Assembly: GCA_036874045.1 (NCBI GenBank) | Contig: CM072343.1 | Location: forward strand, 5,228,001-5,292,000 | DNA from: Cymodocea nodosa | Taxonomy: Eukaryota; Streptophyta; Magnoliopsida; Alismatales; Cymodoceaceae | DNA length: 64,000 nt | Direction of reading: 5' to 3' | Shown: positions 679 to 37,363 of the stretch, in pieces | Layout of the letters: every line of letters starts with the position of its first letter | Numbering within the stretch: position 1 is the first letter of the stretch | Notes under the pieces: generated by a model | Databases searched by the model: none | The model's input: the letters and a program-made list of their open reading frames with translations, nothing else | Told to the model about the DNA's origin: nothing | Position numbers and translations under genes: made by a program

Positions 679-746
679 AATTGAGAAACTAAGCAACTAT
701 ATGTGTTGTTTTGTTTTAATAGCAAAAGTGTTGTGTGTTTACTTCT

Positions 747-1626: not shown

Positions 1627-1699
1627 TCTTTTAAATGACAATTATTAGCACCCTATCCTAAAAGATTACAACAAACATTTCCTGAAAAACAAGAAAAAG

Positions 1700-2562
1700 T
1701 TAGAGAAATTTTTGAAAAAGTAGTTAACATTCCTTTGTTAGATTTATTGTAGAAAATGCCACCTTGTGCTAAATTTCTTGAGGATTGGTGTACTAAGAAA
1801 AGAGAGTGAAAAGTTTTAAGGAAAGTCTTTTTAGCTAAGCAAAGTAGTTCCCTATTTCTGCCACAAATTCCTAAAAAGTTATCTAATCCTGGAATCCCTA
1901 TTATATCATGCACCATAAGAAATATCATTCTAGAAAGAACCATAATAGACTTAGGTATAGGTATAAATGTTATGCCAAGTGATATATTTGCATCCTTAGG
2001 ATTAGAAGTCTTAATCCCTACTAGGACTGTTATTCAATTAGCTAATAGAAGTATAAGATACCCTAGAGGAAAAATAGAGGATGTCTTAATTAAAATCAAA
2101 AACTTCATATATCCTATTGATATTGTAATTTTGGATTTCTAACAAATTAAGCATAAAAATAGTGATATATCTTTAATTTTGGGAAGACCATTTTTAGCAA
2201 CATCAGGGGTTGTTATTAATTGTAAAACTGGAGTAATGAAGTTAGCATATGGTAATGAGGATACTCAATTAAATATTTTCAAACCAGAAAAGTTTGAGAA
2301 GTTAGAAATATTTTTACATACTATAGACTTTTTAGAGGATGAATGAGATATGCTAGATGATGTGATTCAAGAAGAGTTAAATAGGCAACTAAATTCTAAA
2401 ACTTTAGAGGAAAGTGAAAGCATAAATATAGAAGGAGATCAGGAAGAAAATAATTTAGAAAATGATGATGTTCAATTAGGAGCTCTAGCTTCTGATGGGC
2501 AGCAATTAGAATTAAAACCTTTACCTCCTGAATTAACCTATATATTTCTGGAAGAAAAATGA
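1700..2562 (+). pseudogene. G1 pol: aspartic protease region
   Basis: The region resembles the Athila-type retropepsin. It begins with a LLDL..MPPCAKFL-like segment, then a DLG.GINVMPSDIFASLG active-site block near 1951-2000. YPRGKIEDVLI and LGRPFLAT blocks (about 2058-2200) follow. An acidic linker to about 2562 joins it to RT. The same blocks appear at the matching place in G3 (38277-38900), which supports the assignment. The retropepsin would mature Gag-Pol inside virus-like particles. Broken. Confidence 0.75.
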
Positions 2563-2574
2563 ACTTATCCAATT

Positions 2575-4050
2575 ATTATTACTTCAGATTTAAAAGAGGA
2601 TCAAATTGCTAAATTAAAAGATGTAGTCAAAACTTATAAAGAAGCAATAGGATGGACTATGACTAATATAAAAGGATTAAGTGCAACTTTATGCTGTCAC
2701 CACATATATTTAGAAGAGAATGCTAAACCTATTAGAATTCTTGAGAGAAGATTAAATTCAAACCTTAAAGAAGTAGTCAGGAAGGAAATAGTTAAATGGT
2801 TAGATAATGACATAATTTATCCAATTTCTGATAGCTCATGGGTTAGCCCCATCCATGTAATTCCCAAGAAATCAAGATTAACAGTTATTAGGAATGAAAG
2901 TCAAGACTTGATACCTACTAGAATTTAATCAGGCTAGAGAGTGTGTATAGATTATAGAAAGCTGAATGCAATGACTAGGAAAGATCATTTTCCCTTACCT
3001 TTCATAGATCAAATGCTAGAAAAATTAGTAGGGCAAGAATATTTTTGTTTCCTAGACGGGTATTCAAGATATAACCAAGTCCTAGTAGCATTAGAGGATC
3101 AAGAGAAAACAACTTTCACCTGTTCTAATGGAACTTATGCTTTTAAGAGAATGCCATTTGGACTATGCAATGCATCAGCCACCTTTCAAAGGTATATGCA
3201 AGGCATATTCACTAGAATGACTGAAGATTTTTTAGAAATATTTATGGATGATTTTACTATTTATGGAACTTCATATGAAGTGTGTTTAAACAATTTAGAC
3301 CAAGTATTAAAATGCTGTGTGGAAAAAAATCTAGTTCTGAATTGGGAAAAATGTAACTTCATGGTTAAACAAGAAATAGTCTTAGGACATGTTTCAAAGA
3401 AAGGGTTGGAAGTAGATAAAGCTAAAATAGAAATAATTTTTAATCTACCAGAACCTAAATTAGTAAAAGATATTAGATCATTTCTAGGACATGCTAGACT
3501 TTATAGAAGATTTATTAAAGATTTTAGCAAAATAGCTAGACCTTTAACCAATCTATTAAAAGATGTCTCATTCAATTTTGATAAAATTGCAAAGAAGCAT
3601 TTTTCAAGCTTAAAACTAGCTTAATTTCAACACCTATGATTCAAGCACTTGATTGGAGCCATCCATTTGAATTAATGTGTGATGCATCTGATTTTGGTGT
3701 AGGAGCAGTGTTGGGACAGAAGATAGAAAATTCTCCTAGAGTGATTCATTATGCAAGCAAAACCTTAAATGATGCTCAAGTTAATTATACAACTACTGAA
3801 AAAGAACTATTAGCTGTTGTGTTTGCCTTAGAAAAGTTTAGATCATATCTGATTGGAGTTAAAGTGATAGTATACACGGATCATTCAGCTTTAAAATACC
3901 TAATAGCAAAAAAAGAGACCAAACTGAGATTGATCCGGTGGATATTATTATTACAAGAATTTGATCTAGAAATTAAAGATAAAAAAGGTTGTGAGAATGT
4001 AGTACCAGATCATTTATCAAGATTACAAATAGAAAAATCAAATATTGAAA
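2575..4050 (+). pseudogene. G1 pol: reverse transcriptase and RNase H
   Basis: RT blocks in order are YPISDSSWVSPIHVIPKKS (about 2818), CIDYRKLNAMTRKDHFPLPF (about 2944), MPFGLCNASATFQR (about 3152) and the catalytic box FMDDF (about 3241). RNase H starts near 3640 with [15 protein letters not shown]. It continues with [20 protein letters not shown] and the [10 protein letters not shown] block, and ends in DHLSRLQ near 4030. The signature is Athila/Tat, not chromovirus. Broken by a few interruptions but easily readable. Confidence 0.88.
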
Positions 4051-4074
4051 TTAAGGATAATTTTCCTGATGAAC

Positions 4075-4553
4075 AATTAATGACCATCAACACAATGCCT
4101 TGGTATGCAAACATAGTTAATTACTTAGTTACTGGTTTAACACCTAAAGATTGGAATAGACAAGATAAGAAATTGTTCTTTTTAAGAGTAAAATATTACT
4201 ATTGGGAAGACCCATACTTATTTAAGAAATGTCTTGATCTAGTTTTAAGGAGGTGTGTTCCAAAAACTGAATATCAGAGCATATTATCTTTCTACCATGA
4301 CCAAGCATGTGGAGGACATTTTGGTTCAGGGAAAACTACTACTAAAATTCTGCAATGTGGATTTTATTGGCCATCACTATTCAAAGATGCTCATAAATAT
4401 TGCTTAAGCTGTATAAAATGTCAACAAATAGGAAGAATATCAAAAAGGAATATGCTGCCTCTTAATCCTATTGTTGAGGTTGAAATCTTTGATATGTGGG
4501 AAATAGATTTTATAGGTCCATTTCCTACATCTAATCAATTTAATTATATATAG
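4075..4553 (+). pseudogene. G1 integrase, part before the Ca insertion
   Basis: The zinc-binding HHCC module is visible around 4290-4425 ([19 protein letters not shown] ... CLSCIKCQQ). It is followed by the start of the catalytic core ([10 protein letters not shown], about 4498). The copia-derived insert Ca follows at 4554, and integrase sequence resumes near 8095. The matching part of G2 is at 48400-48811 on the minus strand. Confidence 0.82.
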
Positions 4554-4580
4554 ATTTTAAGGGCATCTGAGAAACGAGCA

Positions 4581-6172
4581 TTGCATATGACCCTACATTT
4601 ACAAGATACTTTAGTTAAGAGGAGAAATCAAGCATTATTGCATAAACTCAGTGAGCAACCTGGAATTAAGATTCTAGAGCCTATAGAGCTTGCTTATCTT
4701 CATGATTTTTCTGATATGGCAGAGAAGAAGAAATCAGTGGCTAAACCTGAATTCTTTTTGCCTCAGAAAGGAATTGATTTCAAGCATGTGGCTAGTCGTT
4801 CATATCCTCCAATTCCTGAGTTATGTATTGGAATTCTACACCAAATTGCTCCTGGTTCTTCTCATTTGATCTCCTCAGCTAGTCCAATTTTGCCTACAGT
4901 TGTCTCCTCTCCCCTTTCATCCGAGTTTTGCCCAATCTCTACTTGTACATAGAGAAGAATTCACACCTCCTCCTCCTTCATCTGATGTAGAATCTCATCC
5001 AATTCCTTCTCCTCACACTCAAATGGTGATACAAGGATTGTATGAAGATTCAGGTTTTGTCTCTGCTCCTCAATCTCCTCCTCCTTCTGCAAACCCTCTA
5101 GCAAATGAAGATCTAGAGGTTGAAGTTAATTTTTCCTCAGACATCCCTACAGATGTATATTATTTCAAATTCTTTGCAGCTAGGGATCTCTTTTTTAATA
5201 AATATCAAGGCATGAAGATCATTTACAGCAAAATTGTAAATTTTAAAGGAATGGATTCTATTCATAGTCTACTTATTCATCAAGGGCTTTTAGGTCTTAT
5301 TTCTTCCCCCTCAAGGTTATCTATTTTTGAAGACCTAATTCCTCTTTTCTACTCAAACCTTGAGATATTTCCTCATTTTTGTCTCCTGCACCTACAAAAT
5401 CAAACAATAAGGATTGATGGAGAATTTTTGGAGAATCTTTTTGGAATACCATCTACTGGTATAAATATTGCTTTTTCTCCATCAGAACTTGGATGGCAGG
5501 AATCAAAGATGAATAAATTGATTGGAAAAACTCCTGATAGAAAATTCAAGTTAGTTAATACTACAGATCTTAATGGTTTGGCCCAAATGATTGCCACCAT
5601 CCTGTCTTCCTCTATATTTCAAAAAATAGGTCATGCAGATGAATTGGAAAGGAAAGTCTACCAAGCCACTTATGTTGTGATGGCTGGTATCAAGGTTAAC
5701 TGGGCAAAAGTTATTATTGCTCAGATTACTCATCTGTAAAGTTTTCTGTACTATGGAGATTTTATTTATCATCTGATGGCTAGATACATTGATTTATTGG
5801 GCAAACCTTTGAAATCCATTAAAAGAAGAGTACTACAGCTTAAGGATCTTTAGAGAATGTCCTCCTTTGATCTAGTTGAGTTGCCCCCTCCTTTTCAACC
5901 ATCTGCAACTCAGAATTCAGCACCTTAGTCTACAGCAGCTTCACCTCCTATCGCACCTCTTTTTGCAGAAACTCCACCTCCTACAGCACCTCCTCCAGCT
6001 CTAGTAGCTTCATTTATAGCAGTTGATAGTTCTAAGACCCTCCTAAACTAGAATGAGCTTCTACTTCAGCATAATCAGATGCTTTTGGATCAAGTGGCTC
6101 ATTTAGAACAACTTTTGAGGGAGAGGGATAACTTAATTCAAGATTTATTATAGAAAAAGTCAACTGCACCTT
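4581..6172 (+). pseudogene. Ca: PF20167-type accessory ORF
   Basis: A degraded ORF has a Pro/Ser-rich N-terminal half (about 4850-5110) and then a domain at about 5150-5770 matching the plant family annotated as 'putative plant transposon protein' (PF20167). Visible family blocks are IPLFYSNL, an LFGIPSTG-like segment, a LNGLAQMIATIL...GHADEL segment and a VNWAKVIIAQ block. A second Pro/Ala-rich stretch follows. The end is a short leucine-rich coiled coil (LLLQHNQMLLDQVAHLEQLL). The molecular function of the family is unknown; despite its name no transposase catalytic motif is visible. The ORF sits where env-like ORFs lie in SIRE-type copia elements, but no signal peptide or membrane segment was seen. 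Broken. Confidence 0.7.
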
Positions 6173-6363
6173 AGATTTCTTGTTTTTCCTTTGATGTAAT
6201 TTTCATTTTTTTATGTATCCCTATTGTTCTTACTCTTCAATCAATAAAATTACATTTTATTTATCTCTGAGTATTCTTCAATTAATTGTCTCCACTTTTT
6301 AATTTTGACAAAGGGGGAGAATATATCTATTTACAGTTTTGTCATCATCAAAAAGGGGGAGAT
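6173..6363 (+). other. Ca: 3' non-coding tail with doubled polypurine tracts
   Basis: Two purine tracts, AAAGGGGGAGAA (about 6310) and AAAAAGGGGGAGA (about 6350-6361), precede the LTR. The second abuts the LTR start and would prime plus-strand synthesis. Doubled tracts of this form also occur in Cb, Cc and Cd and are typical of SIRE/Maximus-like copia. Confidence 0.8.
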
Positions 6364-8094
6364 TGTTAGTTCATTTATTTATCAGTTAATTTTGATGATG
6401 AAAAACGTGTGGTTTAATTATTTTTGCCATATGTTAGATGTCCTTTTACTCAAATGAATTTTGGCTAACTGCTATGTACTTAAAGTCTTTTAAATTAGAT
6501 TTTGACAAGTTATTTTGTCTACAATGCATTGATCGGAGAGTTATTTTATAAGTCACCGAACAAAACAGGACAAATCGGATGGTTATGTCTCTCTCTCCTG
6601 GCTTTTCGGACAGTTATATCAGTAACTATCCGAAAAGTATTTATCTTCGGTGAGTTAAGTCTTTTTATGTTCGGATATGATTTTTTATGGTAAGTCTTCG
6701 AAATCCCATTGATTTCGGATAGTTAAGGTTGTTATTCTAGAGAGTTAACTATTTCTCTGATTTAATATATTTTCGGTTACTTTCTTCTAAAGGACACGTG
6801 TCAGTCTCTCATCGCTTAACTTAAGTGACTTTTTGGAAGGTTACGATGTAACTATCCAAAAACTCTTAAGAATCAGAGAGTTATCTTTTGTAAGTATCCG
6901 AAAACTGTTTTAAGCTTCAGATGGTTGAGTTTTCTATTATTTTCTGACTTAAGTGACTTTTCGGAAGGTTACTTGTGTAACTATCCGAAATGACTTAAGG
7001 ATCAAAGAGTTATCTTTATAAGTATCCGAAACATGTCCACTCTATCGGATAGTTTATTTTTTAATATTTAATAACGCAATTTCAGAAGGACACGTGTTTC
7101 AATTTTAATACATGACTTAAGTAGTCTTTCGGAATGTTAGTTCTATCTATCCAAAATGTTTTTGAGTTTCGACAGGTTATCTTTCTAAGTCTCCAATTTT
7201 CTGAATGCCTCCGAAGATTTTATTTTTACAAAAACTACAACTATTATTAATTGACTAATCTTTGTGGCAAGATATCTTTTGATTGCAGATCTCAACTTTA
7301 TTATGATTGAAGGTTGCTGGAAATGAATTCTTGCATAAGGCATCTAACCATTTCAGAATTCTTTCCACTTATGCAAATCTCGAAGGAAAAATAAAAAGGA
7401 TTTTGCAGAAAATTGATATACACATAGAATTTTTCAACACTCGAAAGGAGAAATTGTCTGCTTAGTAATTCTAAAAACACTTTGAAGATTCGTCTGCAAC
7501 AAAGTCTAGAAGATCAACAACTACAGATCAATCAAGAATTCTCCTTAGAGCTTCTGTGTCAACTCTTCATTGGAGTTGATCTAGTCTTGTGTGTCATTTT
7601 CATTTTGAGTCTGTGACTCTTGATTTTAAACTACTGTCTCTTTTGTGTTAAAACCTTAACTCAAAAGAGTGTTGTGAGTATACCTTCACAAGGTTGGGGC
7701 CTTGGTGAAGAGAGTGAAGTGTGATACTTCACTTGCTCAAGATTGGGGTCTTGAGTACATAAAGTTGGTGCTTTGTGTGAGGTTTTTGTTTAGCCTTTAA
7801 AAACATCTGTAAGGTTGTTGCTTAGCCTGCAAAAGCAACTTGTTTAAGGTTTGTGCTTAGCCTTAAAAGCACTTAGTGGAATTCTCGAGGTTGTGGCCTT
7901 GAGGAGTGGACTACCTAGTTTGGGGAACCACTATAAATCTCTTTGTGTTCTTTACTTTTTGCATTACTAGTTTTAATTCTAAAATCAATTAATCAGGGTT
8001 CATTAGTGTCAACAACTTCTGAATTTTTAAAAGCAACATAAACTTTATTAGGACACTATTCACCCCCCCTCTAGTGTGCCATTCGATCCTTTCA
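6364..8094 (+). repeat. 3' LTR of Ca (1731 bp)
   Basis: It begins TGTTAGTTC directly after the polypurine tract and ends ...GATCCTTTCA. The U3 (about 6500-7230) carries repeated pairs of the type CGGAAGGTTAC / GTAACTATCCGAAA, CTTAAGT boxes and the G-box sequence GACACGTGT (6793-6801 and 7089-7097). The second half (about 7640-7960) is a run of short imperfect repeats built on AAGGTTGTTGCTTAGCCT-like units. Confidence 0.82.
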
Positions 8095-8613
8095 GGGCTT
8101 ACAGAACTGCTTATAAGACAAGCTTAGGTATGTCACCCTTTAGGCTAGTATATGGAAAAAGTTGTCATTTACTAGCAGAAATTGAATATAAAGCTTATTG
8201 GGCATTAAAAACTCTCAACACTAATTTAAATCAAGCTACTGAAAATAGGAAAATCCAATTGATTGAATTAAAAGAATTTAGGAATGAAGCTTATTTAAAA
8301 ATTGTAAGAGAAAAGAGAAAATGAAGTTCTAGCATGATAGGAAAATTATTCCAAAAACCTTTGAAATAGGACAAGAAGTATATCTTTACATGACTAGACT
8401 CCATAACCATCTAGGAAAATTAAGATCTAAATGGGCAGGACCTTACATAGTTCAAAATATTTATCCTTATGGAGTTATTGAAATTGAAAATCCTAAGAAT
8501 TAGAATATATTTAAAGTAAATGGACAAAGACTTAGGCCTATTTTGAAAATACCAAAAAGTTCCTTTGGAATTATAGAAGAAGTAAAAGTAGAGGATTACT
8601 CGAGCTTCACTTA
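8095..8613 (+). pseudogene. G1 integrase, part after the Ca insertion
   Basis: Integrase resumes with [20 protein letters not shown], continues through CHLLAEIEYKAYWALK and ends with the C-terminal block (LRSKWAGPYIV-like, about 8425; [10 protein letters not shown], about 8510). The same blocks lie in G3 at 41461-41920 and on the minus strand in G2 at 47655-48150. Broken. Confidence 0.82.
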
Positions 8614-9330
8614 GTAAGAAATTTTCTAAGTATAAAAAAAAACTTATTTAAATATAATCACGGTTAAACCAAAAGGAATTATTGGTTTTACCAAAATATA
8701 TTTTTTTAAAAAAAGAGAGAAAAATTATTGCGGTTTAACCGACAGGATCCATCAGTTTGACCAAAATACAAAAATATAAAAAAAGGATATTTATATTATA
8801 TTTAGTTTAATGTCGGTGTTACCGAAGTACAGTATTGGTTCAACCAACAGAATATATATATATATGTAATTTAGGTTTAATCGAGGAATATAACAGTTTG
8901 ACCGAAAAGTTTTAAAGTGTAGAAAAAGTAAGATTGGCTAGACTGAAAATTCTTCAGTCTTAACTGAAGTAAAAAGTATTATTATATGCATTTTTTTATT
9001 AGATATAACTTTATGAGAAATCCGTTAAGTTACACATAACTCAACGAACTTACTCCGTTGAGTTTAGGATAAGTTAACGAATTTACCTTGTTGAGTTAAC
9101 TCTAACTCAACGGAGTATTGTAGTTAAGTCTACGGACTAAGTCTGTGGAGTTAACCGTAATTCCACGGATGAGAGAGCGAGAGTTTTGCGTGGGAAGTGA
9201 CCCGATTAGCCACCTAAATTTAGGGCTTCTTTATACTAAACTTAGGGTTTGAGGGGCATTATCCACAGAATCATTTAGAACTTAGAATAGTAAAGATCAG
9301 AGCAATTCCGTTCCGTTGTGTAACTCCACG
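8614..9330 (+). promoter_or_regulatory. G1 dyad-rich spacer before the PF20167-type ORF
   Basis: No coding signal. The first half (8650-8960) holds paired motifs such as GGTTTTACCAAA, CGGTTTAACCGA and GTTTGACCGAA. The second half (9019-9175) holds a cluster of AACTCAACGAAC / CCGTTGAGTT and related half-sites. G2 has both motif classes at the matching place on the minus strand (about 47140-47650), so the layout is a conserved feature of the family. An internal promoter or enhancer for the following ORF is an inference. Confidence 0.55.
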
Positions 9331-11571
9331 ATGAGGAAGATGACACCTGAGTTCTAGGAAAATGCAGTAGACACGTCAGAATTTCTTAAAGATATAGAGG
9401 AATGACACATAAGGCAGAAAATCAGGAATATGACGAGGGAAAAAGAGCTACAAAAGGTAGAACCTGACCTTTTCTATTGGAGGAAAGAGTTAGTAGATTT
9501 GAGTATACAAATCCCTCAGATAATGGAAACTAGAATCAAAGTTGCTACGGAAATTGCTGTAAGCAGAGAAAGAAAAATCAGGCCAAATAACGAAGTTGCC
9601 CTAGAACTAATCCAACGTAAGTCCCGACTATGGTTCAAAAGGAACATTGTTGGTTGTGCAAGGGGAGAAATTAGATAGGAGCAATAAAGGAAGGCAACTA
9701 CAGAACAAGAGGAACCGATTGCTGAAAAACTTGTTCCTGAGGAACAACAGCCAAGACCTTTAATTCCACCACCAAGGTCGTTGGAACAAGCAGTAATTTT
9801 GGGGCCTTCTACTAAAGAAGAAAGAAGAGAATTTCAAAAACTAGTTCAAATAGGAAAAGACCAAGGAGAACCAGAAGAATTGTTAGTAGCTATAGCACAT
9901 CTAGTGTTTGATGCATGGTGCAAAAAGAGGGTTGTAGAAAAGTTGAAAGCCTAATATAAAATCAAAGTTGAATAGCATCGTGAAGCTACTACCAGACCTG
10001 CTGCAAAAGGAGATGAAGTTGGTCCTTCAAGACCAGTAATTATGGGAAGAGTTAAACAGGAAGAGCTAGTACCTATGGCTCAAAGGCTTGCAGAGCCCAT
10101 TTTTGTAGATTTAATCTCAGATGAAGAAGAGGAAGACCGAGCACAATTAATCAGAAGAAGGAAAGGAAAAGAGATAGTACTTGAATATCAAGAGGAGATT
10201 AAATTTGAAATATCAAGTTCAGTAGTGCCTGTAGAGCTGATTTTTGTAAACCTGCTATCCGATTCTAAAGAGGAGCAAGAGCAGCAGTAGCAGCAAGAGC
10301 AAAAAGAAGAAGAAAATCAGGCTGAGACTAGTCTGTAGCCTGTACAAGAAGAAGAAACAGAAATTAGGGCAGAAGGTGATTTTCCCGTAACTCCATCCCA
10401 ATTTGCCACAGAATCAGAAAGAACAATGACATTGCAGATTGGTAGTCAGGAGGAAGAAGAAAAAGAAGAAAATGAACAAGAAGCTAAACAATTACATATG
10501 GAAAGAGATGACTCAACAGATTCCACTAAAGAGCAAAGAACTCTTCAGCAAATTTTGGACAGTATTCAAGATAGAGTGGAGAGTTCTGCCAGCTCACCAC
10601 CACAGACAAAAGCAGAAGCAAAAATGCCAAAATTTGTGGAGCATTTTCAGCAAGTTCAAGTTCAGCTTATGGAAGAGGAAGTTCAAGAACAAACCCCTTT
10701 GGAGCATCAAATTCACATTCTTGACCCGACTAAAACAATAGTTTTAAATGAAGTACACTTTTGGAGTCAAGAAGCTTATAATAAATACCAAGAGATAAGA
10801 GGTTGTGATATCATTTATAGTAGACTAGTAAATTGGGACGGAATGCAAGAAATCAAAGATTTATTTGAGTTCCAAGGTCTACTACAGTTTATTTCTCAAG
10901 AAAGAGGACATGCAATATATGAAAATCGTGTGCCCTACTTTTATGCAAACTTAAGGGAAGGAGAAAGTAGATTAATTTCCAACGTGGAGCAAGCTGATGT
11001 ACAGATAACACCAAAGCTTCTCCACAACATTTTAGGATTGAAGAATGAAAGACTGAAAATTTTGGAAAGCACAATTGCAGTCGAGTGGACAGAACAGACC
11101 ATAAAGGATTGTTTAGCTATCAATCTTGGTGTGCCATTATTAAATAGACTAAAGCAGCTAAATGGTAAAGCACACATGATAGCTAACATTTTGATTAAGA
11201 ATGTCTACCAACGACAAGGCCATTACATAGAACTGAGTCAATTTGTCAAATGGGCCACATATGCAGTTGTGAACAGAATTCAAATAAATTGGTCTGTAGT
11301 TTTTATCTCCAAGCTGAGAACAGTGAAGAAGAAATTATTTTATGGAGATTTCATTTCACTGTTGATGGTGGACTGTATCGATTTCATTAAATGGACATCC
11401 AAAAGGATAAAATCTAGAACCATTTCAATGAAAGAGTATAGAAATTATGTGGCTGCAGAGATAGCTGAACCTTTTGGAGGAGTTGTAGGAGCTGTAGAAA
11501 GGATTAATCAATTAGAGCAACAAGTAGAAAGACTCCAGAAGGAAGTAGATGAACTTAGGAGAAAGGATTAA
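9331..11571 (+). pseudogene. G1: PF20167-type accessory ORF (about 745 codons)
   Basis: The ATG at 9331 follows the dyad spacer. The N-terminal half is charged and Glu/Gln/Lys-rich, with repeated acidic runs and a basic RRRKGKE patch near 10153. The PF20167-type domain covers about 10740-11390: a YNKYQEIRG block, VPYFYANLREG, ITPKLLHNILGLKNE, LNGKAHMIANILIKNVYQRQ and WATYAVVNRIQINW. A short coiled coil closes it (LEQQVERLQKEVDELRRK). G2 carries a clear homologue (26077-27846 and 46466-46960, minus), and the copia pieces Ca, Cb and Cd carry more distant ones. Role unknown; not envelope-like, since no membrane segment is seen. Its second half is open over about 380 codons; broken upstream of that. 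Confidence 0.75.
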
Positions 11572-12696
11572 ACTATATTGTTTGTCTACTTGTACTTGTA
11601 TATAATTGTATGAAAAATATCTAATTGATTGTAATGAAAATTATTCATATAAATGAATGTATGTTTTTCAGATGTTTTTGTATTAATATTGGAGAATGAA
11701 GTAATAGATGAATTATCTTGAATATTATATAACTGTTTGAATAATGTGCAAAACTATTTAAAAAATTTAAAAATTTTATAAATAACAGGATTAAATGCAA
11801 GATAACTGGTTAATGCTAAAAATATCTGTATGTTGTAGAGTAAAATATAAATTTCGCATAATATGAAATGAACTGTAAGTTAAATATTTATATAATGATT
11901 AGATTCAAATGAGTTTAATGACATGTATTTAACTTGATTTAAGTTAATAGAATATAGGAGAGAAGAAAAATATAGAAGTTAATACGAGGAGTAAACTTAG
12001 AAGTTGTTAAGTGTTAACTCAACGAAGTAAGTTCATTGAGTAAACCTTAACTCCATGAGGTCAATAATATAATATAAGGTAACTCTATTGAGTTATCTAT
12101 AACTCAACGAAGTTAGTTCGTAGAGTTAGCAATAGTAACTAAAGTTTGTCTATTGAGCTAACTATAACTCAACGAGGTTAGTTCATAGATTAAGCTAAAC
12201 GGTTATTCTTTTAGCCACGAACAAAACTTCGTAGATCTAGCGGTTATTAAAATTTAAAATAAGAACTGACACATGTACCCATAAAAATAGGAACCACACT
12301 ACACATTACAAGACACGTTCTTGCAACGAGATTCATTTGCTTTATGGACATGCATTATAAATATAGAATAGAATGTTATTCACGAGTTACCAACACTTTT
12401 GAAAGAAAAGGAACTTCGTTGGGGAACTGGAAGGAGAAGTAGCTGATTCAACTTTGTTCATCAACAATTATTTACTAAGTATAAAGCTTTAGACTAGTAT
12501 GTAATTAATCTTCTATTATTTTACTTTATGTTAAGAGTTTATGAGCACATAGATTTGTTCTCCTAGCACTAAAAGATTAGTAAGAACACCTACATAGGAT
12601 TCTTCAACACAGAGATGAACTGAAATATTTTCTAAATTAGACTTTAACGAAATCCTAAGGGGTGTAGCTAACCTTTCTTTAAAAGAGAATGAAGAG
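11572..12696 (+). promoter_or_regulatory. G1 spacer with dyads and a TATA-like box before the displaced gag
   Basis: An AT-rich 1.1-kb stretch without an ORF. Bases 12005-12200 hold at least five copies of the AACTCAACGA / TCGTTGAGTT-type dyad with variants (GTTCATTGAG, GTTCGTAGAG). A TATA-like box TATAAATATA lies at 12356-12365, about 340 bases before the gag ATG. Together they look like a promoter for the downstream gag ORF; promoter activity itself is inferred. Confidence 0.5.
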
Positions 12697-13871
12697 ATGA
12701 CTGCTCTAGTAGAGAAACCATTAGGGGAAATTCTATATACTGAATTAGTTGATGAACCTTCATGTATTCGATTACCAAACTTTGACGGAGATAGGTTTGA
12801 ACTTAAATCTAATTATATTAGTCAATTGCCATATTTTCATTGATTAGAAAGAGAGGATGCCTATTATTTCCTTAGAGAATTTAACGAAGTTTGTCGAATG
12901 ATGAAAATACCAAACATGAGTATTGATGCTATTAAAATTAGATATATCCCTTTTTCTTTAAAAGACACAGCTAAGAAATGGTTATATACTTTATCGCCTG
13001 ATTCAATTTCTGCATGGACTAAATTTTGCTCTATTTTTCTGGAAAAATATTATCCAACACATCAAATGATTAAAAAGAAGAAAGAAATATTAATGTATAG
13101 ATCAAAACAAGGAGAATCATTCTGGAAATATTTTGAAAGATTTAAAGATTTACTAACTTAATGTCCACATCATGCAATGAGTAAAGCATAATTAATAGGT
13201 ATAATTTATGAAAGCATAGATGTTTCAATGAAATCTTTATTAGAATCTACTTGTCAGAATGAATTTTTAAAATTGTGTAGTGAAGAAGCATGGGCATATT
13301 TAGAAAACTTTGCAAAAGAACTACACAGTGGGAAAACTCAGCTAAAGCTATTACAGATAAAAGAATATTGCCAAGGGGAATGCATGAAATAGATTCAAGC
13401 ACTATGCTTGAAGTTAAATTAACTAAGAAAATAGAAGAGTTATCATTAAATCAAAAGCTAGCAGAAAAGAATGCAAACGTTAATGATTTAGATATTATTT
13501 ATGCTAGAAACCAAAAAGATAACTTTAGAAATTCATATAACCCTAATTGGAGAAATCATCCGAATTTATCTTGAAGAAACAACAATTTTTAGGGAGGAGA
13601 AAATATAAATGACAAAAATATGAGTTATGAAGCTTTAATTGAACAAGGATCTAGAATAGAAAAATTAGAAAAGATAATCCAACAATTAAACAATCGTCTA
13701 GATCTTGTATTTGGAAATGTTGCAATTCAAAATAAAAATTTAAATAGAAATATACCCCTAGACAGAAAGAATCAATGGAAATTAGACCTAATGGAGGATT
13801 GCCAATGCAAGCAATACCTAATCCTATCAACAGAACTGTTAATAAAATTGATGCCTCCTCTAGGAGGGTAG
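12697..13871 (+). pseudogene. G1: capsid-type gag domain, placed downstream of pol
   Basis: The segment reads as an Athila-type retrotransposon gag. Blocks are IRLPNFDGDRFELK (about 12768), EDAYYFLREFNEVCRMMKIP (about 12855), IKIRYIPFSLKDTAKKWLYT (about 12928), FLEKYYPTHQ (about 13037) and the FWKYFERFKDLL core (about 13120), followed by CPHH. The rest (to about 13871) is Asn/Lys-rich with a coiled coil and no zinc knuckle. Gag normally precedes protease, so finding this domain after pol and the PF20167-type ORF is unusual. G2 shows the same order on the minus strand (25268-25700, then 20060-20603), so a chance insertion in one copy does not explain it. Broken. Confidence 0.82.
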
Positions 13872-14094
13872 CTGAATTAAACAGTATAACTAAAGTAATT
13901 ATATATATTATAGTAAGTAGAAAAACATAAGAATATAAAAAGAAAAAAAATGTAAGTTTAATTATAGTTAGTAGTATCGTAGAGTTATTACTTAACTCAA
14001 CGAACTTAGTCAGTTGAGTTATGACCTAACTCCATGAGGGTGTGAAGTAGCTATGTTAATTTTATCTCTGTTAATTTTTGTTTATGTTATATAG
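13872..14094 (+). promoter_or_regulatory. G1 spacer between gag and F-box-like gene: dyad and splice-like signals
   Basis: The spacer holds one dyad (AACTCAACGAACTTAG...GTTGAGTTA, about 13990-14020), a donor-like GTAAGT at 13913-13918 and a pyrimidine-rich stretch ending in an acceptor-like AG at 14093-14094. The G2 copy keeps the dyad (about 19905-19970), the TAGTAAGTAG sequence and a TATACAG acceptor-like end at the matching places on the minus strand. A spliced 5' leader for the next gene is possible but unproven. Confidence 0.4.
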
Positions 14095-15238
14095 AATCAC
14101 AACAGATGGAATTGATGAAATTACAACTGGATGCACTAAAGGAAGTACTGAGTAACCTGTTAGTTAAAATCTATGCAGATTGTGTTGTGTATCAAAGGAA
14201 ATCAAAGACTGTGTCAGAGAAAAATATTTTCATGGACTACATGCTGCAAAAATGACTAAGATTAGAGATGAATTTTTATGGAAGTCATTTAATCGTAGTT
14301 CAATCTACTATGAATATTTGAATATAGAAGAAACTGCTTGAATTCCACCCAATGCATTAAAAGGAATAGATCATATTATGGGGATGGATGAAGGATTAAT
14401 TATATACAGAACCAAACCAAGGTATGCAATTCTGTTACCTAACATTTTAATTAGAAATCCTATCACAAGAGAAGAATGGAATATAGGAAGACCTAATAAA
14501 TATGAAGTACCAACTAAAAATTATGGGTCAGCTTTAACATTTTCTGATAAAAATTTGACCATTTTTGAAAAATTATATTATTGGAGACCAATTGGAAATT
14601 GGGATGAAGATTTATGCTTAAGTGTGTATAATTTTCTGAATAGATCTTAGACTGAAAATACGATGAGATATCTAGGACAGAAATCATTAATTAACAGCAT
14701 GCATGTCATACTTGATGGATATATATATCTAGTCACAAATATATCAGTTGCATTTAGATCTGATTTATACATAGTAAGCATAGACAGTTATGATGGTTTT
14801 ATAGAAATATTACCTATATTGAGTGATATAGCTAAACCATTGACTTCAGAATATGATCAAATTCAATTGGGAATGTGGTATAATGAATATGATGATGCTA
14901 CTTTATGTCTGATAAGATGGTGGGATGAATTGAAAAAATTTCAAATATGGATTATGAAAGACCTAAATGAATGGAAGTCGGAAGAAGAATATATTGAAAT
15001 AGACATAGAAATAGAAACAGCTACATTATCTTGGAACATAAGAGGATCCCCTTCTACATTTCAATTCATTAATGATAATACACTTATATTTAGTATTGAT
15101 AACATACTACAAGTTTACAAGCTAAAAAGGAAAGTAAATTGCATTAACACAGAATTAATAACAAGAATTATGCTTAAAAAGTTTGCATGGACTAACGCAT
15201 TTATTCCATTTGTTACTACTTTTCAATCATGTTTTTAA
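14095..15238 (+). pseudogene. G1: captured F-box/FBA-like plant gene
   Basis: The first ~40 codons resemble an F-box: LDALKEVLSNLLVK here, and in the G2 copy the clearer LLAKDLCKLCCVSRQIK. An F-box-associated (FBA-type) region follows, with DEGLIIY, ILIRNPITREEWNIG (about 14436), YIYLVTNISVAFRSDLYI (about 14724), LGMWYNEYDDATLCLIRW (about 14869) and FQIWIMKDLNEW (about 14938). F-box proteins are substrate adaptors of SCF ubiquitin ligases; FBA regions bind the target. This is not a normal retroelement gene and was most likely taken from a host F-box gene. The G2 copy (19061-19870, minus) shows it was present in the family ancestor. Broken in both copies. The fold call rests on motif pattern only. 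Confidence 0.68.
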
Positions 15239-16982
15239 ACTATGATTCTGTGCTTTTAAATTTTGTGTGTATTCTGCATTTTTCTTAATTTTAGTTTTAT
15301 TCTAAAAAAAAAAAAAACAACAACAAAAAAATCAATCTAGTTTGTTGGTATCTATACTTGGAAACCAACTAGCTTGCTTGTGAGCCACCAAAGGCGTAAG
15401 AGCCTGGGTTCCACACAAGACACTGATTTAACAAGTTAAATTGTTATGTTGTTACTTTGCTTTTATGTGAATGAAAAGTTTTTCAGAATCAAAAATCGGA
15501 AGATACTGAAGGAGATACAAAAGGACAAGGTATGTAATTGATTACTTATCTTGAATTTACATTTCAACTAAGTTTGTTGAGTTAGATGCTAAGTTAATGA
15601 AACAATATGCATGCTTGCTATAATTACTGTATTTATTGTAAAATCTTTTACATTGAGGACAATGCAAAATGTAGGTATGGGGGGGAGGTAATTAAAGTAA
15701 CAGCCATGTAATTTTGTTAATTAGAGGAATTAGAATGGTACTACAAAAGTTCTGTGGAAATTGAAAATTTTTTTTTATGAATTTGCTGTAACTATCTGAT
15801 ATTTGAAATTGTAAAATTTTTAAGAACTGTGACTGCTTGAATGTTATATTTATAATCTTATATAAGATGCTACAAATTTTATTATTCATACAAATCTAGA
15901 TATAGTATCTTATGTTGTTGCTGAATTTTATGAGTTTAACAATTTCATGATTTTAAAATGAAATCAGAATGCTTAATTGAAACTCAGTAATTATCTAAAA
16001 TCCTGAAAGAGCTAAAATGTTGAGTTTTGAATTAAATAAAATACATATGATCAAGGATACATTTAATTTGATTGATTAAACTTGTAAAATGATTTATGTG
16101 TAGAGCTTATTAAACTATAGAAAAAGTATGAGCTTATTGACATGGATTCATATTTTCAGTAAATAATAGAAGTAGAACTATATGAGATTTGTGTTTTATT
16201 GCATCTGTATTAATGAAATACATAAATATATTGTTTTTTTTTAAAAAAAAAAACTTTGAGAGTTTATTGACTTGTTTGATCATGAGCCTTTTGTACTTGA
16301 GCAGATAGGTATGTAAGGATTGTTGACCTGAAAAAGAACTCTTTAAATCTGGCAACCTAAGATCATGATCAGATCTGGGATTGTTGATTGAAAGCTCGAT
16401 ACATGGGTACACTAGAAAGCTCTTGTATGATTCAAGCTTGTCAAATTAACTTTTAAAGTACAAATATGAATATACTATTTTGAAAAGATACAAGTGTTTT
16501 GTGAAATACAGATATCTTTTGAATCGAGTATACGTTCTGTTATCTAAAATTGCTGAAGTATGAATCTAGAATAGACTTTTGAAGTTGTTTATTTGAGATA
16601 CAATTCTTTATTCTACTTGTCTTAATTATATTGAATTGGATTGTGTTTTGATTTGTATGTACTTGAAATTTATTCTAGAAATCATATTGGAAAATTCAAG
16701 ATGACAAATGCTAAAAAGAAGAGCAAACGATAATATAATTAACACCTATGTGATGTTGATATATTTTGTATGTAATTTACATATATTCTAAGTATATTTG
16801 CAAGTTGAAAAGGAGAAACAAAGTTAAAACAGATTACTGAAACATACAGAAAAGCTATATAGTAATCTAATTTATTATTTTGAAGAAGAACTAGGTGAAG
16901 AATTAATTCTAGCACTTTAGAATGACCAACTAATTAGATCTTAGTTTGCTAAGGGACTAGCAAAATTTAAGTATGGGGGAAG
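15239..16982 (+). other. G1 3' non-coding region: A-rich tract, conserved purine motif and PPT
   Basis: No gene seen. A run of 14 A lies at 15304-15317, about 65 bases after the F-box-like stop. The motif CATTGAGGACAATG followed by TATGGGGGGGAGG (about 15652-15688) recurs in G3 at about 42793-42832 and is a typical landmark of the Athila 3' region. The tract AAGTATGGGGGAAG (16969-16982) abuts the 3' LTR and is the likely plus-strand primer. The remaining 1.2 kb is AT-rich without recognisable structure. Confidence 0.7.
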
Positions 16983-19060
16983 TGTTTAGAATGAAAAAGT
17001 GCATAATATTAACGGTTAAATGATGGTTAATTGCATAATATTTAGCTTATCATATGAGAATTAAACCATTATGTTATAATTGCACTATTATATGCTTTAA
17101 TGAAAGAATCTGCATAATTTCAGGGAATTAAAGTTAATTTAGTACATTTCTGAACTATCGGTAAGTTGCTGGTTTTTAATTCTTTAGTATTCGAATTTTC
17201 TGTTATTTTAGAGAGTTATATTGTATGTACCAGACAGTTATGTTTTAAATGCTAAAAGAATATTTAAGTGATCAGTATCAACTAGTTGAGTTAGTGTTCT
17301 TTTTGTTAAAAGATCACGTGCCAACTCGTTGAGTTACAAGTTTAAAGGTATAAAAAGATCACGTGAGAACTCGTTGAGTTAGCGAGCGAAAATCGTAAGT
17401 TATATATTTGAACTCGTTAAGTTAGAATGATGCATGTGTTGAATTTAAAATACTTTATTATGTCGCGTGAGATGCACATGTTTAACTCGTTAAGTTAGCA
17501 TAATTGAACATGTTGAGTTACATGAATACATACTAAGGTAATGCATTATGTTAGCAGCTTATTTCTTTATTGCACGTGTTTTATAGTTAAATCAACGAAG
17601 TAAGTCTGTTGAGTTATTTGTAACTCCACGGACCATTTATTTTCTAATATGCCATTGTAGCAGTTACAGAAACAGGACATTCGAAGGAAAGCCACGATTG
17701 AACGTATCACGTAGGAATTCACTCATGGAAGAGAGAAGAAATCACCATCGTTGATCTAAATGAAGGAAATCCAACCGATCATTTAGAGTAGAAGCAGTTA
17801 CTACTGAAGAAATATAAAAGAAGAAGAGAAAAAACGAAGAAGGTGTGGTTGGCGGTGTGTGGCAATGTGTGTAAAGGTGGAGGATCACACTAACTACAGG
17901 TAGCGTCGAAAGTTCACTGAATCATCCACATCATCACCAACAATTCACCAACATCACCAACATTACCATAATCACCAACCATCGGAGGTCTGTGAGGATA
18001 GTTTCCTGATGTCGGGTCGATTCCGAGCTAAACATGGTGCTTGACAACCACTGTGAGGAGTAATCACTTCGCGGGAAGGGATGCCATTTTCACCAAGCAC
18101 CGACTCATATCTCAAGAGATCGTAAAGCTTCTAGCCTTGGTTTCGAGTTGATGCCAGTATGCTGAAGAGGAGATTATCTTACAATTTTGGACTCGCGATT
18201 CTATAAGGAGAGGAGGCAAAATTGTAAGTGATTAAGTTTTAAGTGGTGTAATCACGTAGCATGTAGTGACGGAAGTATTTACTATCGATAGAGATTTTTA
18301 CATTTCACCTTTCGCCCATTTTCTTGAACATCTCAAAACAAAAATACCAAAAACAACAACTTATCTGAGTTTATATTTAGTATTTAAGTGTTGTATTGTT
18401 TGTTTTGTATTGTGATTAAAGTTATTATTGTTAGTATTGTGAATGTTTTGTGTTTGTTTGATTCAGAAAATAGAGAATAGTATTACAGTTATTGAAATCG
18501 ATTGTTCCGAATACTTAAAGATTTTAATGGTTACTGTTTGAAATATTTTAATGTTAGTGTTGCTTAATGATAAATCTAATATTCACTAGCATTAAAGAGT
18601 TCAATTGATGTTATTTACAATCTATGGAACCACCCAATGGTTGGCTGAATTCCTCTGTAAATAGCAGTATTAAACCGAAAAGATAGGCTCATGGAGTTAA
18701 CTTAAGTCCACGAGATTAGTCCGTTGTGTTAACTGTAACTCAACGGAGGGATTACTGAACACATTAAGTATATTATAAAAAAAACGGAATAGTACACAAT
18801 TCTTACTTAATTTCTCTATGGAATCGACCTGTACTTGCACACAAATATAATACTCTATGCACTTGCAGTTAAAATACAAATTGGAATTAATATCTAATTT
18901 TTGTGAAAGGTTGTTTGTTTACTTCTAAAAAGGAATTACTGATAAGCATAAAGACAAATTAACTAAGTTAAAAACAGAAGTTAACAAATACAAGTTAGTT
19001 AGTGTTGTTGCTTAGGAACTAATACAAGTTCTCTAGTGCCACCTAAAGCAACCTGAACAC
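16983..19060 (+). repeat. 3' LTR of G1 (2078 bp)
   Basis: It runs from TGTTTAGAATG after the polypurine tract to ...CAACCTGAACA; its last ~657 bases match bases 1-653. The U3 (17270-17640) carries repeated AACTCGTTGAGTTA-type dyads mixed with ACGTG boxes, including TCACGTGAGAACTCGTT near 17362. A TATA-like box TATAAAAG lies at 17813-17820, placing the transcription start near 17845. A second dyad block lies near the end (18685-18745). Part of the U3 matches the copia-type LTR of Cb. Bases 19061-19065 (CATTC) should be one arm of the target-site duplication. Confidence 0.9.
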
Positions 19061-19870
19061 ATTCCTAATTGAATTTTATCATGTTCTACAAATGGTGGTT
19101 CAACTATATCATTAGATATAGGTAATATTTCTATAAAGTCATCATCATAACTATCTATGCTTAGTATGTATAAATCAGATCTAAATGTAACTGATATATC
19201 TGTGACTAGATATATATATCCATCAAGTATGACATGTATATTGTTAACTAATGCTTTCTCTCCTAGATATATCATAGTGTTTTCATTCTAAGATCTATTC
19301 AGAAAATTATATACACTTAAACATAGATCCTCATCCTAATTTCCAATTGGTCTCCAATAATACAATTTTTCAGGAATGGTCGAATTTTTATTAGAAAATG
19401 TTAAAGCTGACCCACAATTCTCAATTGGTACTTCAAATCTATTAGGTCATCCTATATTCCATTCTTCTCTAGTAATAGGATTTCTAATCAAAATATTGGG
19501 TAACAGAATTGCATACCTTGGTTTGGTTTTGTAAATAATCAATCCTTCATCTATCTCCATAATATGATCTATTCCTTCTAATGTATTGGGTGGAATTCTA
19601 GTAGTTTCTTCTATGTTCAGATATTCATAACTGATTGAACTACGATTAAATGACTTCCAAAAAAATCCATCTCTAATATTAGTCATCTTTGCAGCTTATA
19701 GTCCATGAAAATATTTTTCTTTAACACATTCTTTAATTTGTCTTGACACACAACACAATTTGCATAGATCTTTAGCTAGTAAGTTACTCAATACTTCCCT
19801 CAATGCATCCAATAGTAATTTCATCAATTCCATATGTTGTGATTCTGTATAACATAAACAAAATTTAGTA
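19061..19870 (-). pseudogene. G2: F-box/FBA-like gene, second copy
   Basis: The minus-strand reading opens with MELMKLLLDALREVLSNLLA followed by KDLCKLCCVSRQIKECV. This is a better F-box match than the G1 copy: hydrophobic heptad, then a C.VS..W-like end. The FBA-like part keeps ILIRNPITREEWNIG, DEGLIIYKTKP and YIYLVTDISVTFRSDLYI. The sequence stops at 19061, where the G1 LTR begins. Its presence in two independently decayed copies shows the capture predates both. Confidence 0.68.
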
Positions 19871-20059: not shown

Positions 20060-20603
20060 GTGCTTTACTCATTCAGCTTCCCTCCCATAGGAGGTATCAA
20101 TTTCATTAACAATTCTATTGATAGGGTTAGGCATTACTTGCATTGGCAGTCCTCTAGTAGGTCTAACTTCTATTGATTCCTTCTATCTAAGGGATATATT
20201 TCTATTCATATTTTGATTCTAAATGGCAATATTTCCAAATACATGATCTAGACGACTGTTTAATTGTTGAATTATTTTTTCTAATTTCTCTATTATAGAT
20301 CCTTGTTTAATTAATGTTTCATAACTTATATTTTCATCATTTATATTTTCTCCTCCCTGAAAATTATTATTTCTCTAAGATAGATTTGGGTGATTTCTCC
20401 AATTGGGGTTATAAAAATTTCCAAAGTTATCTTTCTAGTTTCTAGCATAAATAATATCTAAGTCATTAATATTTGCATTCTTTTCTACTAGTTTTTGATT
20501 TAATGATAACTCCTCAATTTTCTTTGTTAACTCAGTTAATTTAACTTCAAGCATAGTGCTCGAATCTATTTCATGCATTCCCCATGGTAATATTCTTTTA
20601 TCT
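20060..20603 (-). pseudogene. G2: C-terminal part of the displaced gag
   Basis: The minus-strand reading matches G1 13364-13871: RILPWGMHEIDSSTMLEVKL, a KKIEELSLNQKLVEKNAN coiled coil, DIIYARN, then an Asn-rich tail. The copia fragment Cb starts at about 20604 and separates this part from the gag core at 25268-25700. Broken. Confidence 0.75.
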
Positions 20604-22219
20604 AGTAGGGTCGTATGGCAACACAAGAGGGGGGTGAATTGTGTTTTTCAACATTTTCGATTATAATTGAAACTTTAAAACTCAAAAACAAGTCGAGACT
20701 GTTTTCATAAAATCATTTTTATTCAAGGTTTCAATTACAATATACAATTCAATTCTCCTCAGAAATTGTAGATGCAATTATATATCGATACCATGTTTCA
20801 ATTAGATATCGATACCATGTTTCATCTATACAATTTCATAACTACAAATAGAGAAAACTAATTTGCGAAATTTAAAACATTTCTCCCTGTTTGAGATCTT
20901 TCTTCTTTAGCAATTCTTTAGTGACTAATATCTAATCTTTCTCTGCTTCACCGAATTTACTTTCTTCTGATACTTTAAATCTTCAGTGACATAAATCTGA
21001 CCTTTTCTGCTTCACTAAATTTTCTTCCATCTGATACTTCAAATCTTCAATGACATATATCTTACCTTTTTATGCTTCATTGAATTTTCTTCCACCTGAG
21101 AGCTTTTCCCCGAAGAGGTGTTTTTGATCCCTGAAAAGATTTTTCTTTTGGTGTGCAGGGATAACTGATCAATGAGAATTCTATGCCTTTTATATTGTAT
21201 CTTCATTTCATGCATATCCTCCACGTTTAATCACTACTAGTTTTCCACTTCTTCACGTCTTTTCTTTTTCCTTCATCGAAATACACACGTTCTGACCCAC
21301 GTTTACATTTTGAATTTTCTTTAATCATCAATCCTGGATCTCTGAAAAATTTCTTGCAAAATAAACTTTCTTGTCCAAAATTTTTTATCAAGTATAATAA
21401 GAAGTCGTTACTTTAATGTTAACTAAATGAGTAACACAAGTAGATATATAACTTAACATTTCTAACTTAACGAGTTCCTCATGTGCCAACTCATGTGACA
21501 AGTACTGTAATTAACTCAACGAACTAAGTCTGTGGTGTTACGCTAACTCAATGAACCATCTCCATTGTGTTATAGATAACTCAATGAACCAGTAATAAAC
21601 AAATGCTTTTATAATAAGAATTTTACCACGTGCAAAAATAACAACTTAAGTTTTATAACGCTAACCTAATGTGTTGCCTTAGTGTTCAATATAGCAACTC
21701 AACACGTTTAGTTATGTTAACTTAACAAGTTAAACATGTGCACCTCACATGATACAATATAACATTCGTAACTTATAATTTCACCACGTGTATAATACTA
21801 ACTTAACGAGTTTGTCTCTTCTTTTACTCACTAACTTAACGAGTTCTCACGTGACCTATTTTAACCTTTAAGCCTTTAACTTAACGAGTTCTCACGTGAC
21901 CTCTATACGAACACAACTCTAACTTAACAAGTTGTCAAAATGTGTACTGTTCATGATATAGAGGATATAACTTTAAAACATATCATGCTTTTCAATAAAA
22001 ACACACGTTAACTTAACGTTTAGTTAAATGAGAAATTAATACAATAAAATGACTAGTTATTAACTTAGTATAATTTCAGATCCAATACAGACACGTATTT
22101 ATATCAGTAAGCTTTTTCTATATTAATTGATGTACTTAATTTCCTTTCACAAGTAATAGTAATTGAGCAAATATGATTATTTTCATTCAGCACACATCAT
22201 CAAAACAAAATACAAAACA
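20604..22219 (-). repeat. LTR of Cb, minus strand
   Basis: On the minus strand it begins TGTTTTGTATTTTG after the polypurine tract and ends near the block ATTCACCCCCCTCTTGTG shared with copia LTRs here. U3 carries AACTCGTTAAGTTA-type dyads and ACGTG boxes. Stretches such as TCACGTGAGAACTCGTT (about 21885) and TGCACATGTTTAACT (about 21735) are identical to parts of the gypsy LTR of G1. So the termini are copia-like while part of U3 is shared with a gypsy family. Confidence 0.78.
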
Positions 22220-22762
22220 ATCTCCCCCTTTTTGATGATGACAAAACCATATTAAATCAATTATGAAATATATTTAATTCAACAAAGCACATTCATTGGG
22301 TTAACTTTTAATTCAACAAAGTTTGTTGACTTAAGTTCACTTAAGCTTATTTCTATTGTTTATGTAAATTTCACCTCTTAGAAATAAAACTTCCAGATGA
22401 CAATAATTACATAAGTATCATTTCTCCCCCTTTCATTATATAATTTAATAACCATATAATTTTCTTTCAGATTACATTATCATCTATCAGATTACAATAA
22501 CCATATAAGTATCATCTCCCTTTAAAATATATGCAATTAAAATCATAATCATCTTCTTTTATAACATTTCTCCCCCTTTTTGTCATTAATCAAAAAGATG
22601 ATTACACAGTGTATATATATATAGTAAGAGACATATTTACAACAACGCTTTCTATAAACAATAACAAGAATTGTAAACATTTACAGAAAAATGTATTGTT
22701 CAATGAATCAAACAATGAATACAAACATTACATTTTGTATTCAGATACAAGCAAACAAACAG
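22220..22762 (-). other. Cb: 3' non-coding tail with doubled polypurine tracts
   Basis: On the plus strand TCTCCCCCTTTTTGATGATG begins at 22221, next to the LTR, and TTTCTCCCCCTTTTTGTCAT lies near 22567. These are the complements of the two polypurine tracts. A third, shorter CTCCCCCTTTC lies near 22423. No gene in between. Confidence 0.78.
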
Positions 22763-25011: not shown

Positions 25012-25267
25012 TGTCGCAGGTTGTAACAACAACAAGCGGGAAAGATTTTTTGACAAAGTTTACGAATAACCTAAGTGCCCCTGTAATAAGTGTTTAAATA
25101 GGGTTTTAGGTGAATAACTCAATGTGTATAGAAGGTGGGTTTGGATTTTAAATGAATATTGAATAAAGTTTATTCAATCAAGGTACTCGAAATATTCAAG
25201 TATAACTCGTTGAGTTAACTAACCTAACGAGTAAAATGCTATCTTTTAAATATTGAATATTGAACTC
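25012..25267 (-). promoter_or_regulatory. Cb: leader upstream of the PF20167-type ORF
   Basis: About 250 bases hold dyads of the AACTCGTTGAGTTAACTAACC type (about 25205-25230) and a second half-site near 25265. The layout matches the dyad spacers before the homologous ORFs in G1 and Cd. The 5' truncation of Cb falls just beyond it. Confidence 0.45.
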
Positions 25268-37357: not shown

Positions 37358-37363
37358 AATTTT

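Follow-up and report, generated by a model that had tools for sequence, protein, structure and literature searches.

A Ty3/gypsy retrotransposon family of Cymodocea nodosa with its capsid-type gag gene behind pol and an env-like reading frame

Within 64,000 nucleotides of the Cymodocea nodosa genome (contig CM072343.1, positions 5,228,001 to 5,292,000; hereafter the window), self-comparison resolves three related long terminal repeat (LTR) elements, which we call G1, G2 and G3. In G1 and G2 the capsid gene lies downstream of pol. We consider it likely that both belong, as copies now decayed, to an abundant Athila-like Ty3/gypsy family in which Gag is split, with the capsid encoded in a downstream cistron and, slightly more likely than not, expressed from an RNA of its own. 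The proposed family order is 5' LTR, primer-binding site (PBS), a zinc knuckle and coiled coil joined to protease (PR), reverse transcriptase (RT), RNase H (RH) and integrase (IN), then an env-like open reading frame (ORF), a capsid-type gag, an F-box gene, a polypurine tract (PPT) and the 3' LTR (Table 1). The nucleocapsid (NC) part of Gag would thus stand before the protease and the capsid part in its own cistron behind env.

The position of the capsid gene downstream of pol is confirmed in the window. Pfam places Retrotrans_gag PF03732 at 12844-13161 of G1 (E 1.3e-11, open pieces), and natural gag ORFs from two other copies match this domain with E 4e-18 and 1.8e-17. The G1 gag frame opens near 12619, and gag-related sequence extends to 13871, behind integrase and the env-like ORF, as an earlier note made from this sequence alone had claimed. 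The order is identical in G2 on the minus strand, again as claimed there, with integrase running from 48157 downwards and followed by env and the two halves of gag. G1 and G2 are indeed separate insertions: G2 is the older, and its sequence stops at 19059, where the LTR of G1 ends. None of the stops in the capsid half (two in G1, four in G2) occurs in both elements, although one gag stop beyond that half is common to them. The earlier note had also placed a PF20167-type ORF before gag. An env-like ORF is found there, but PF20167 was not detected on G1's own ORF at E<=1; the domain appears weakly, below cut-off, on relatives of this ORF at 4870-5736 (E 8.6e-4) and 23572-23111 (E 0.0057). The extent first given for G1, 8614-16982, proved too short, since its LTRs end at 653 and 19059. 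The element begins before base 1, and because its left side lies outside the window its own target-site duplication (TSD) is not checkable.

To see the arrangement beyond the window we turned to its genome (374.6 Mb, 28 contigs), in which integrase DNA and gag DNA gave similar numbers of first-look candidates, 3887 and 3651, with 40 of each scored; all first-look counts (3651, 3887, 7065, 7089 and 97) are loose. Ten gag copies, numbered 0 to 9, were read with 10 kb on each side. They are matches 2-11 of the 40 scored, thus among the best-matching. Six (copies 0, 5, 6, 7, 8 and 9) form one unit running 5' LTR-knuckle ORF-PR-RT-RH-IN-env-gag-3' LTR, the last at least at its start; copy 0 lost part of RT, and the 3' LTR is broken in copies 5, 7 and 9. 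In copy 1 the order holds between RT and the LTR, integrase being interrupted by an insertion, and the upstream part is broken in copies 2, 3 and 4. Eight of the ten have the F-box gene behind gag, copy 6 retaining only its end and copy 3 having none. All three copies read at both ends (0, 6 and 8) are flanked by TSDs, namely CTTAT/CTTAT, CTCCA/CTCCA (5/5) and CCACT/CCACC (4/5). The lengths of these units are 16.8, 16.5 and 17.3 kb; LTR identity within them is 92.1, 92.8 and 94.5%, which corresponds to about 2-3 million years at an assumed rate of 1.3e-8 per site and year. The downstream gag moves with the element at transposition.

The same picture emerges when copies are chosen by integrase alone (20 copies, matches 2-21 of 40 scored): in 11 of them gag is present downstream where expected, in a stretch of 1.2 kb read there. 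Among the other nine, one (L052) retains only the gag tail and eight have no gag there. Read back, one of these eight (L058) shows the start of gag and then an interruption, and seven exit family sequence at seven different points before gag, their coverage being that of the stretch read. A clean empty site, with env joined to post-gag sequence, was the contrary case named in the earlier note; none was seen among these nine in the stretches read, which reach up to 5.4 kb behind the integrase start. Together with the six ordered copies and the TSDs, these counts support the view, already put forward there, that the order pol-env-gag is a property of the family rather than a local accident. Measured against the order expected of Ty3/gypsy elements, GAG-PROT-RT-RH-INT (PMC6317226), the PROT-RT-RH-INT part is in place, and the capsid GAG stands behind INT and env in 6/6 complete copies.

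The place usually held by gag, before the protease, contains only a CCHC-type knuckle and a coiled coil without a capsid domain, in agreement with the earlier reading. Such a short ORF is present in both G1 and G3, and in six other copies the N-terminal stretch recurs with a single knuckle, never altered at more than one residue. A TLRS stretch lies behind the knuckle in four of these six (0, 6, 8 and 9), the sequence viewed for copies 5 and 7 ending short of it. Across the window and its 200 kb flanks (264 kb), no capsid domain precedes any of ten protease matches within 2 kb; the other contrary case, gag before protease, did not appear there either. A complementary loss of the zinc knuckle was considered as a special feature of the family and lost weight, as the gag-first plant polyproteins P0105 and P0113 also lack a knuckle in the gag stretch viewed.

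The downstream gag shows signs of purifying selection like those on pol, and it is kept in both subfamilies. These were assigned by eye (A: copies 2, 5, 6 and G1; B: copies 0, 1, 4, 7, 8 and 9), with copy 3 and G2 in neither for the ratio of nonsynonymous to synonymous change (dN/dS) and for the counts of fixed differences; rows lacking a region were dropped (copies 3 and 6 for F-box; copies 2, 3 and 4 for env; copies 2, 3 and 4 for pol, for which G1 was not given). Compared between A and B, gag has a mean dN/dS of 0.34, RT-RH-IN of 0.28, env of 0.36 and the F-box gene of 0.50. Within the subfamilies, where decay after insertion weighs more, the values are 0.55/0.55 for gag, 0.72/0.66 for F-box, 0.42/0.61 for pol and 0.47/0.35 for env, the second env value being no higher than that between subfamilies. 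Fixed A/B differences fall on codon positions 1/2/3 as 3/4/11 in gag, 3/3/19 in pol, 26/17/34 in F-box and 12/13/24 in env, and their contrast with variable changes is significant for gag (p 0.029), F-box (p 0.0015) and pol (p 2.9e-5) but not for env (p 0.64). Between G1 and G2, gag differences distribute as 34/22/50 (p 0.004), the second half contributing most; a spacer control gives 21/29/24 (p 0.52), and two F-box pieces show no codon-position bias (p 0.38 and 0.67). Finally, 23 of 128 scored gag copies are free of stops over the 308-aa query, the query copy counted.

The third element, G3, a capsid-less sister family overlooked in the earlier note, provides a natural test of capsid supply in trans. 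Its LTRs are 96.3% alike, and the uninterrupted site of its 5-bp TSD is visible in the other LTR of the host element. A search with its 5' region returned 97 first-look candidates, of which the 40 scored were all 96-100% identical; G3 appears as a young, low-copy family related to G1 and G2. No gag lies between integrase and 3' LTR in four of five other G3 copies, each covered over the integrase-to-LTR stretch only, and the fifth is interrupted there. The pol genes of G3 and G1 differ with a dN/dS of 0.13 (dS saturated), so both lines kept pol working for long. Their N-termini match modestly (score 44, best of 1000 shuffles 41), and the knuckle ORF lies right behind the PBS in both, which suggests that loss of the 5' capsid predates their split. 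G3 must obtain its capsid in trans, perhaps from the G1 family.

How, then, might a downstream capsid gene be expressed? The window contains 72 occurrences of the motif AACTC[AC]ACG or its complement (at most one mismatch), where shuffling predicts 15.8 (maximum of 20 shuffles 27; base content only kept, in blocks of 500). These dyads form clusters in the LTR and ahead of both env (9023-9322) and gag (12016-12174). Among six such modules all 15 pairs align above the best of 60 shuffles, one of them barely (35 vs 34), and the pre-env and pre-gag modules of G1 are predicted to fold strongly as RNA (z -7.0 and -8.1), whereas the LTR modules fold weakly (z -1.9 and -3.0). Downstream of the dyads lies a TATA-like box, 327-341 nt ahead of the ATG that corresponds to 12697; it reads TATAAATATAGA in four A rows and, among B rows, TATATATATAAA in four and TATATATATGAA in two. 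Both signals had been reported before gag in the earlier note. In the LTR, too, the dyads are followed by a TATA-like site, which was picked out by eye near 17811. A separate transcript or splicing for Gag, as proposed in the earlier note, is plausible, and a TATA-like box at a fixed place behind dyad/hairpin modules leans to an internal promoter. We incline slightly to a model in which gag is read from its own RNA, whose start would lie in the region of the TATA-like box and the dyads, 330-700 nt ahead of the ATG. The capsid would then assemble with a separately made NC-Pol polyprotein.

Several observations weigh against the split-Gag reading as a whole. The strict form TATAAA[TA]A occurs at the place of the box in only 4/10 rows, and such TATA words arise easily in AT-rich DNA. 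The in-frame ATG at the place of 12697 is present in 9/11 rows, copies 2 and 6 being the exceptions. An extra in-frame ATG lies 156 nt earlier in copies 3 and 5, and the two subfamilies resemble each other in the peptide preceding the first ATG, so that translation may begin farther upstream and the start codon is not settled. The capsid half alone, compared between G1 and G2, has no significant codon-position bias (15/11/19, p 0.34). No single copy was shown to be intact in all genes. G1 and G2 have a frameshift in common in the integrase C-terminus (about 8312-8357 and 47900-47945), and with the one shared gag stop this indicates that some source copies were already defective. The spread of G3 without a capsid gene means that capsid can be supplied in trans, and the element that carries the downstream gag may not be the one it serves.

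An alternative to an internal promoter, possible though somewhat doubtful, is that the arrangement is real and used, with gag translated from genomic RNA that is spliced or internally initiated, in the manner of an internal ribosome entry site. The contrast between the strong pre-env and pre-gag folds and the weak LTR ones speaks for it, as do the occurrence of similar modules in the LTR and the unsettled start codon, which would suit a spliced 5' exon; it sits poorly with a TATA-like box held at one place in all ten rows, downstream of dyads, and with the same succession of dyads and TATA-like site in the LTR. We think it improbable that the capsid gene was lost early, that the lineage lives on trans capsid from other elements and that the downstream gag is unused captured cargo. 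Selection on gag near that on pol, the stop-free gag copies and the retained leader and TATA-like box all argue against unused cargo, and no gag-first element was seen in the 264 kb, even though G3 made a complete insertion with a TSD while lacking a detectable capsid gene, four of its five other copies read show no gag before the 3' LTR, and G1 and G2 have an integrase frameshift in common. Crowded with nested elements as the window is, an artefact of nesting or misassembly that put an unrelated gag behind pol is refuted by the same order on many contigs, by TSDs that flank whole units and by a constant gag-to-F-box spacing of 1445-1465 nt in eight pairs (found by eye in both score lists).

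Where did the split-Gag arrangement come from? The best full-coverage relatives of pol are plant polyproteins, with RT 62-71% identical to those compared; a placement in the Athila lineage is tentative. The PBS form TGGCGCCGTTGCCGGGGA, seen in the copies, we take to be Athila-linked and of the tRNA-Asp type. Identity between G1 and G2 is about 86-90% in the LTR piece, the pol pieces, gag and the F-box gene but only about 70% from just behind integrase to just before gag (8600-12745 vs 47660-25700). One of them has thus probably had its env cassette replaced through recombination, and template switching becomes plausible as the route by which gag arrived. We envision that the capsid part was relocated in this way, probably when the RNAs of different elements recombined or the template was switched between them. 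Of the gag fragments in the protein collection the closest, P0002, P0003, P0005 and P0006 (58-69% identical, without context), fall in one clade with the gag of G1 and G2, P0001 and P0004 joining next. Identities of gag and of RT to G1 are not correlated among ten gag-bearing polyproteins (rho -0.37, p 0.29). No PBS-like pattern match that would betray a nested LTR as the source was found between env and gag, and the viral and bacterial collections gave no useful relative, only one weak 45% match.

Behind gag the family carries an F-box gene of cellular type, part of the element and overlooked in the earlier note. The G1 pieces alone matched nothing in Pfam, the PDB or the protein collection, and the identification came from open ORFs of other copies. 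The 389-aa ORF of copy 8 contains an F-box domain (PF00646, 28.3 bits against a cut-off of 20.5, E 1.5e-6); it also matches TIGR01640 with E 1.4e-6, yet at 27.8 bits against a cut-off of 37.9, and the ORF of copy 1 matches FBA_1 below cut-off (E 0.014). Over about 389 aa, 32 of 106 scored copies are stop-free, the query copy counted. No PDB relative of the ORF was found by sequence at E<=0.1, and an AlphaFold model of a 195-aa piece (pLDDT 39) was not used. The protein is tentatively proposed to act as an adaptor of a Skp1-cullin-F-box (SCF) complex directed against some host factor. A role in silencing, on the model of viral F-box proteins, is a guess.

Table 1. Features of G1, G2 and G3 in the window, with one further F-box stretch (L027)
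Feature	Coordinates	Strand	Remarks
G1 5' LTR, right part	1-653	+	93% direct repeat with 18404-19059 (portions inside the window); left part outside
G1 PBS (TGGTGTCGTTGCTGGGGAA)	661-680	+	same pattern matched in copies 7, 8, 9
G1 5' ORF remnant	723-1451	+	CCHC-type knuckle (one changed residue) and coiled coil, no capsid domain
G1 protease region	1693-2349	+	tblastn
G1 RT, RNase H, first part of integrase	2600-4551	+	broken
Insertion inside G1 integrase	4552-8095	+	with env-like ORF 4870-5736; not seen at that place in 10 copies read
G1 integrase, C-terminal part	8100-8590	+	
Dyad/hairpin module before env	9023-9169	+	
G1 env-like ORF	10339-11571	+	410 aa, open stop to stop; PF20167-related through relatives
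Dyad/hairpin module before gag	12016-12174	+	
TATA-like box	12356-12367	+	one place in 10/10 aligned rows; TATAAATATAGA in 4, TATATATAT[AG]AA in 6
G1 capsid-type gag ORF	12619-13871	+	broken; downstream of pol and env; in-frame ATG 12697
G1 F-box gene	14100-15238	+	broken
CATTGAGGACAATG landmark and internal PPT-like tract	15646-15690	+	common to G1 and G3
G1 PPT	16970-16982	+	
G1 3' LTR	16983-19059	+	TGTTTAG...CTGAACA
G2 F-box gene	19060-19598	-	truncated by G1
G2 gag, second half	20075-20603	-	repeated element divides the halves
G2 gag, capsid half	25264-25702	-	
G2 env-like ORF	26080-27350	-	broken
G3	35729-45593	+	LTRs, TSD GTTAC, knuckle ORF, PR-RT-RH-IN, no capsid gene found
G2 LTR fragment and pol/integrase	46645-49004	-	
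F-box gene, further stretch	L027:7534-8700	-	

LTRs with TG...CA ends, PBS, PPT and 5-bp TSDs are all present, as befits Ty3/gypsy LTR retrotransposons. The insertion inside the G1 integrase, with its PF20167-related env-like ORF, takes the place of about 336 nt of integrase. Both G1 (15646-15690) and G3 (42795-42830) have an internal CATTGAGGACAATG...GGGGGG tract that resembles a second PPT, more than 1 kb before the 3' LTR. G2 is split by another element between about 27850 and 46460, and the stretch between its gag halves, 20604-25263, is a separate repeated element with an env-like ORF and a part resembling the G1 LTR; it has long matches of 78-87% in the stretches around copies 1, 2, 3, 4, 7 and 8. 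An additional env-like ORF lies outside the three elements at 50885-51593 (minus strand). Another repeat is present in two copies that are 90-92% alike (29894-34110 and 59613-64000), the second with 183 nt duplicated (62093-62461).

A capsid gene downstream of pol breaks the usual coupling of Gag and Gag-Pol on one RNA and raises the question of how capsid and enzymes are kept in balance. In its F-box gene the family offers a concrete candidate for the means by which a plant retrotransposon could act on its host. As a tentative and broader proposal, these parts may form one split-Gag system, with a capsid made from its own promoter, an NC-Pol fusion, an F-box effector that turns SCF against silencing and capsid-less relatives such as G3 that use the capsid in trans; it would probably exist in thousands of copies in this genome. 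Such systems may have been overlooked elsewhere because surveys discard unexpected domain orders. A reference survey of plant elements took an unexpected domain order to mean 'likely incorrectly predicted' and removed every such element (PMC6317226, section 6), and a review describes LTR retrotransposons as LTR-gag-pol-LTR (PMC7264820). An abundant family with its capsid gene behind pol means that a domain-order filter can hide real biology.

In the accessible parts of the open-licence literature searched (PMC6317226, PMC1142308, PMC11963269, PMC11728184, PMC7264820, PMC5408684), neither a gag behind pol nor an F-box gene is described in an LTR element, and the term F-box is absent from those of PMC5408684 and PMC7264820. 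The nearest known system is Athila/OTA (PMC6317226, PMC1142308, PMC7264820), which G1 and G2 resemble in the PR-RT-RH-IN order, the long internal region, a PF03732-type capsid, an env-like ORF in sense between pol and 3' LTR, whose relation to the PF20167/PF03078 type of Athila runs through relatives that match PF20167 below cut-off, and a PBS of TGGCGCCGTTGCCGGGGA form; they differ in having the capsid gene behind pol and env, the knuckle alone before protease and an F-box gene behind gag. GAG-less Retand clusters (PMC11963269) and BARE-2, cited in the same paper, are like G3 in having no capsid domain before protease, whereas G1 and G2 carry their capsid gene downstream and do not lack it. 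Extra genes are also carried by LTR elements of bdelloid rotifers (PMC5408684) and by an orchid Gypsy with a demethylase domain (PMC9289625), much as the F-box gene is in G1 and G2. For the proposed workings of a Gag made apart from Pol, the parallel is with foamy viruses. These have a separate Pol RNA and an internal promoter. The analogy (compare PMC7828637) is one of working only, Gag and Pol coming from separate RNAs: in foamy viruses Gag is 5' and Pol is the separate product, whereas in G1 and G2 it is the capsid part that would be made separately, from downstream.
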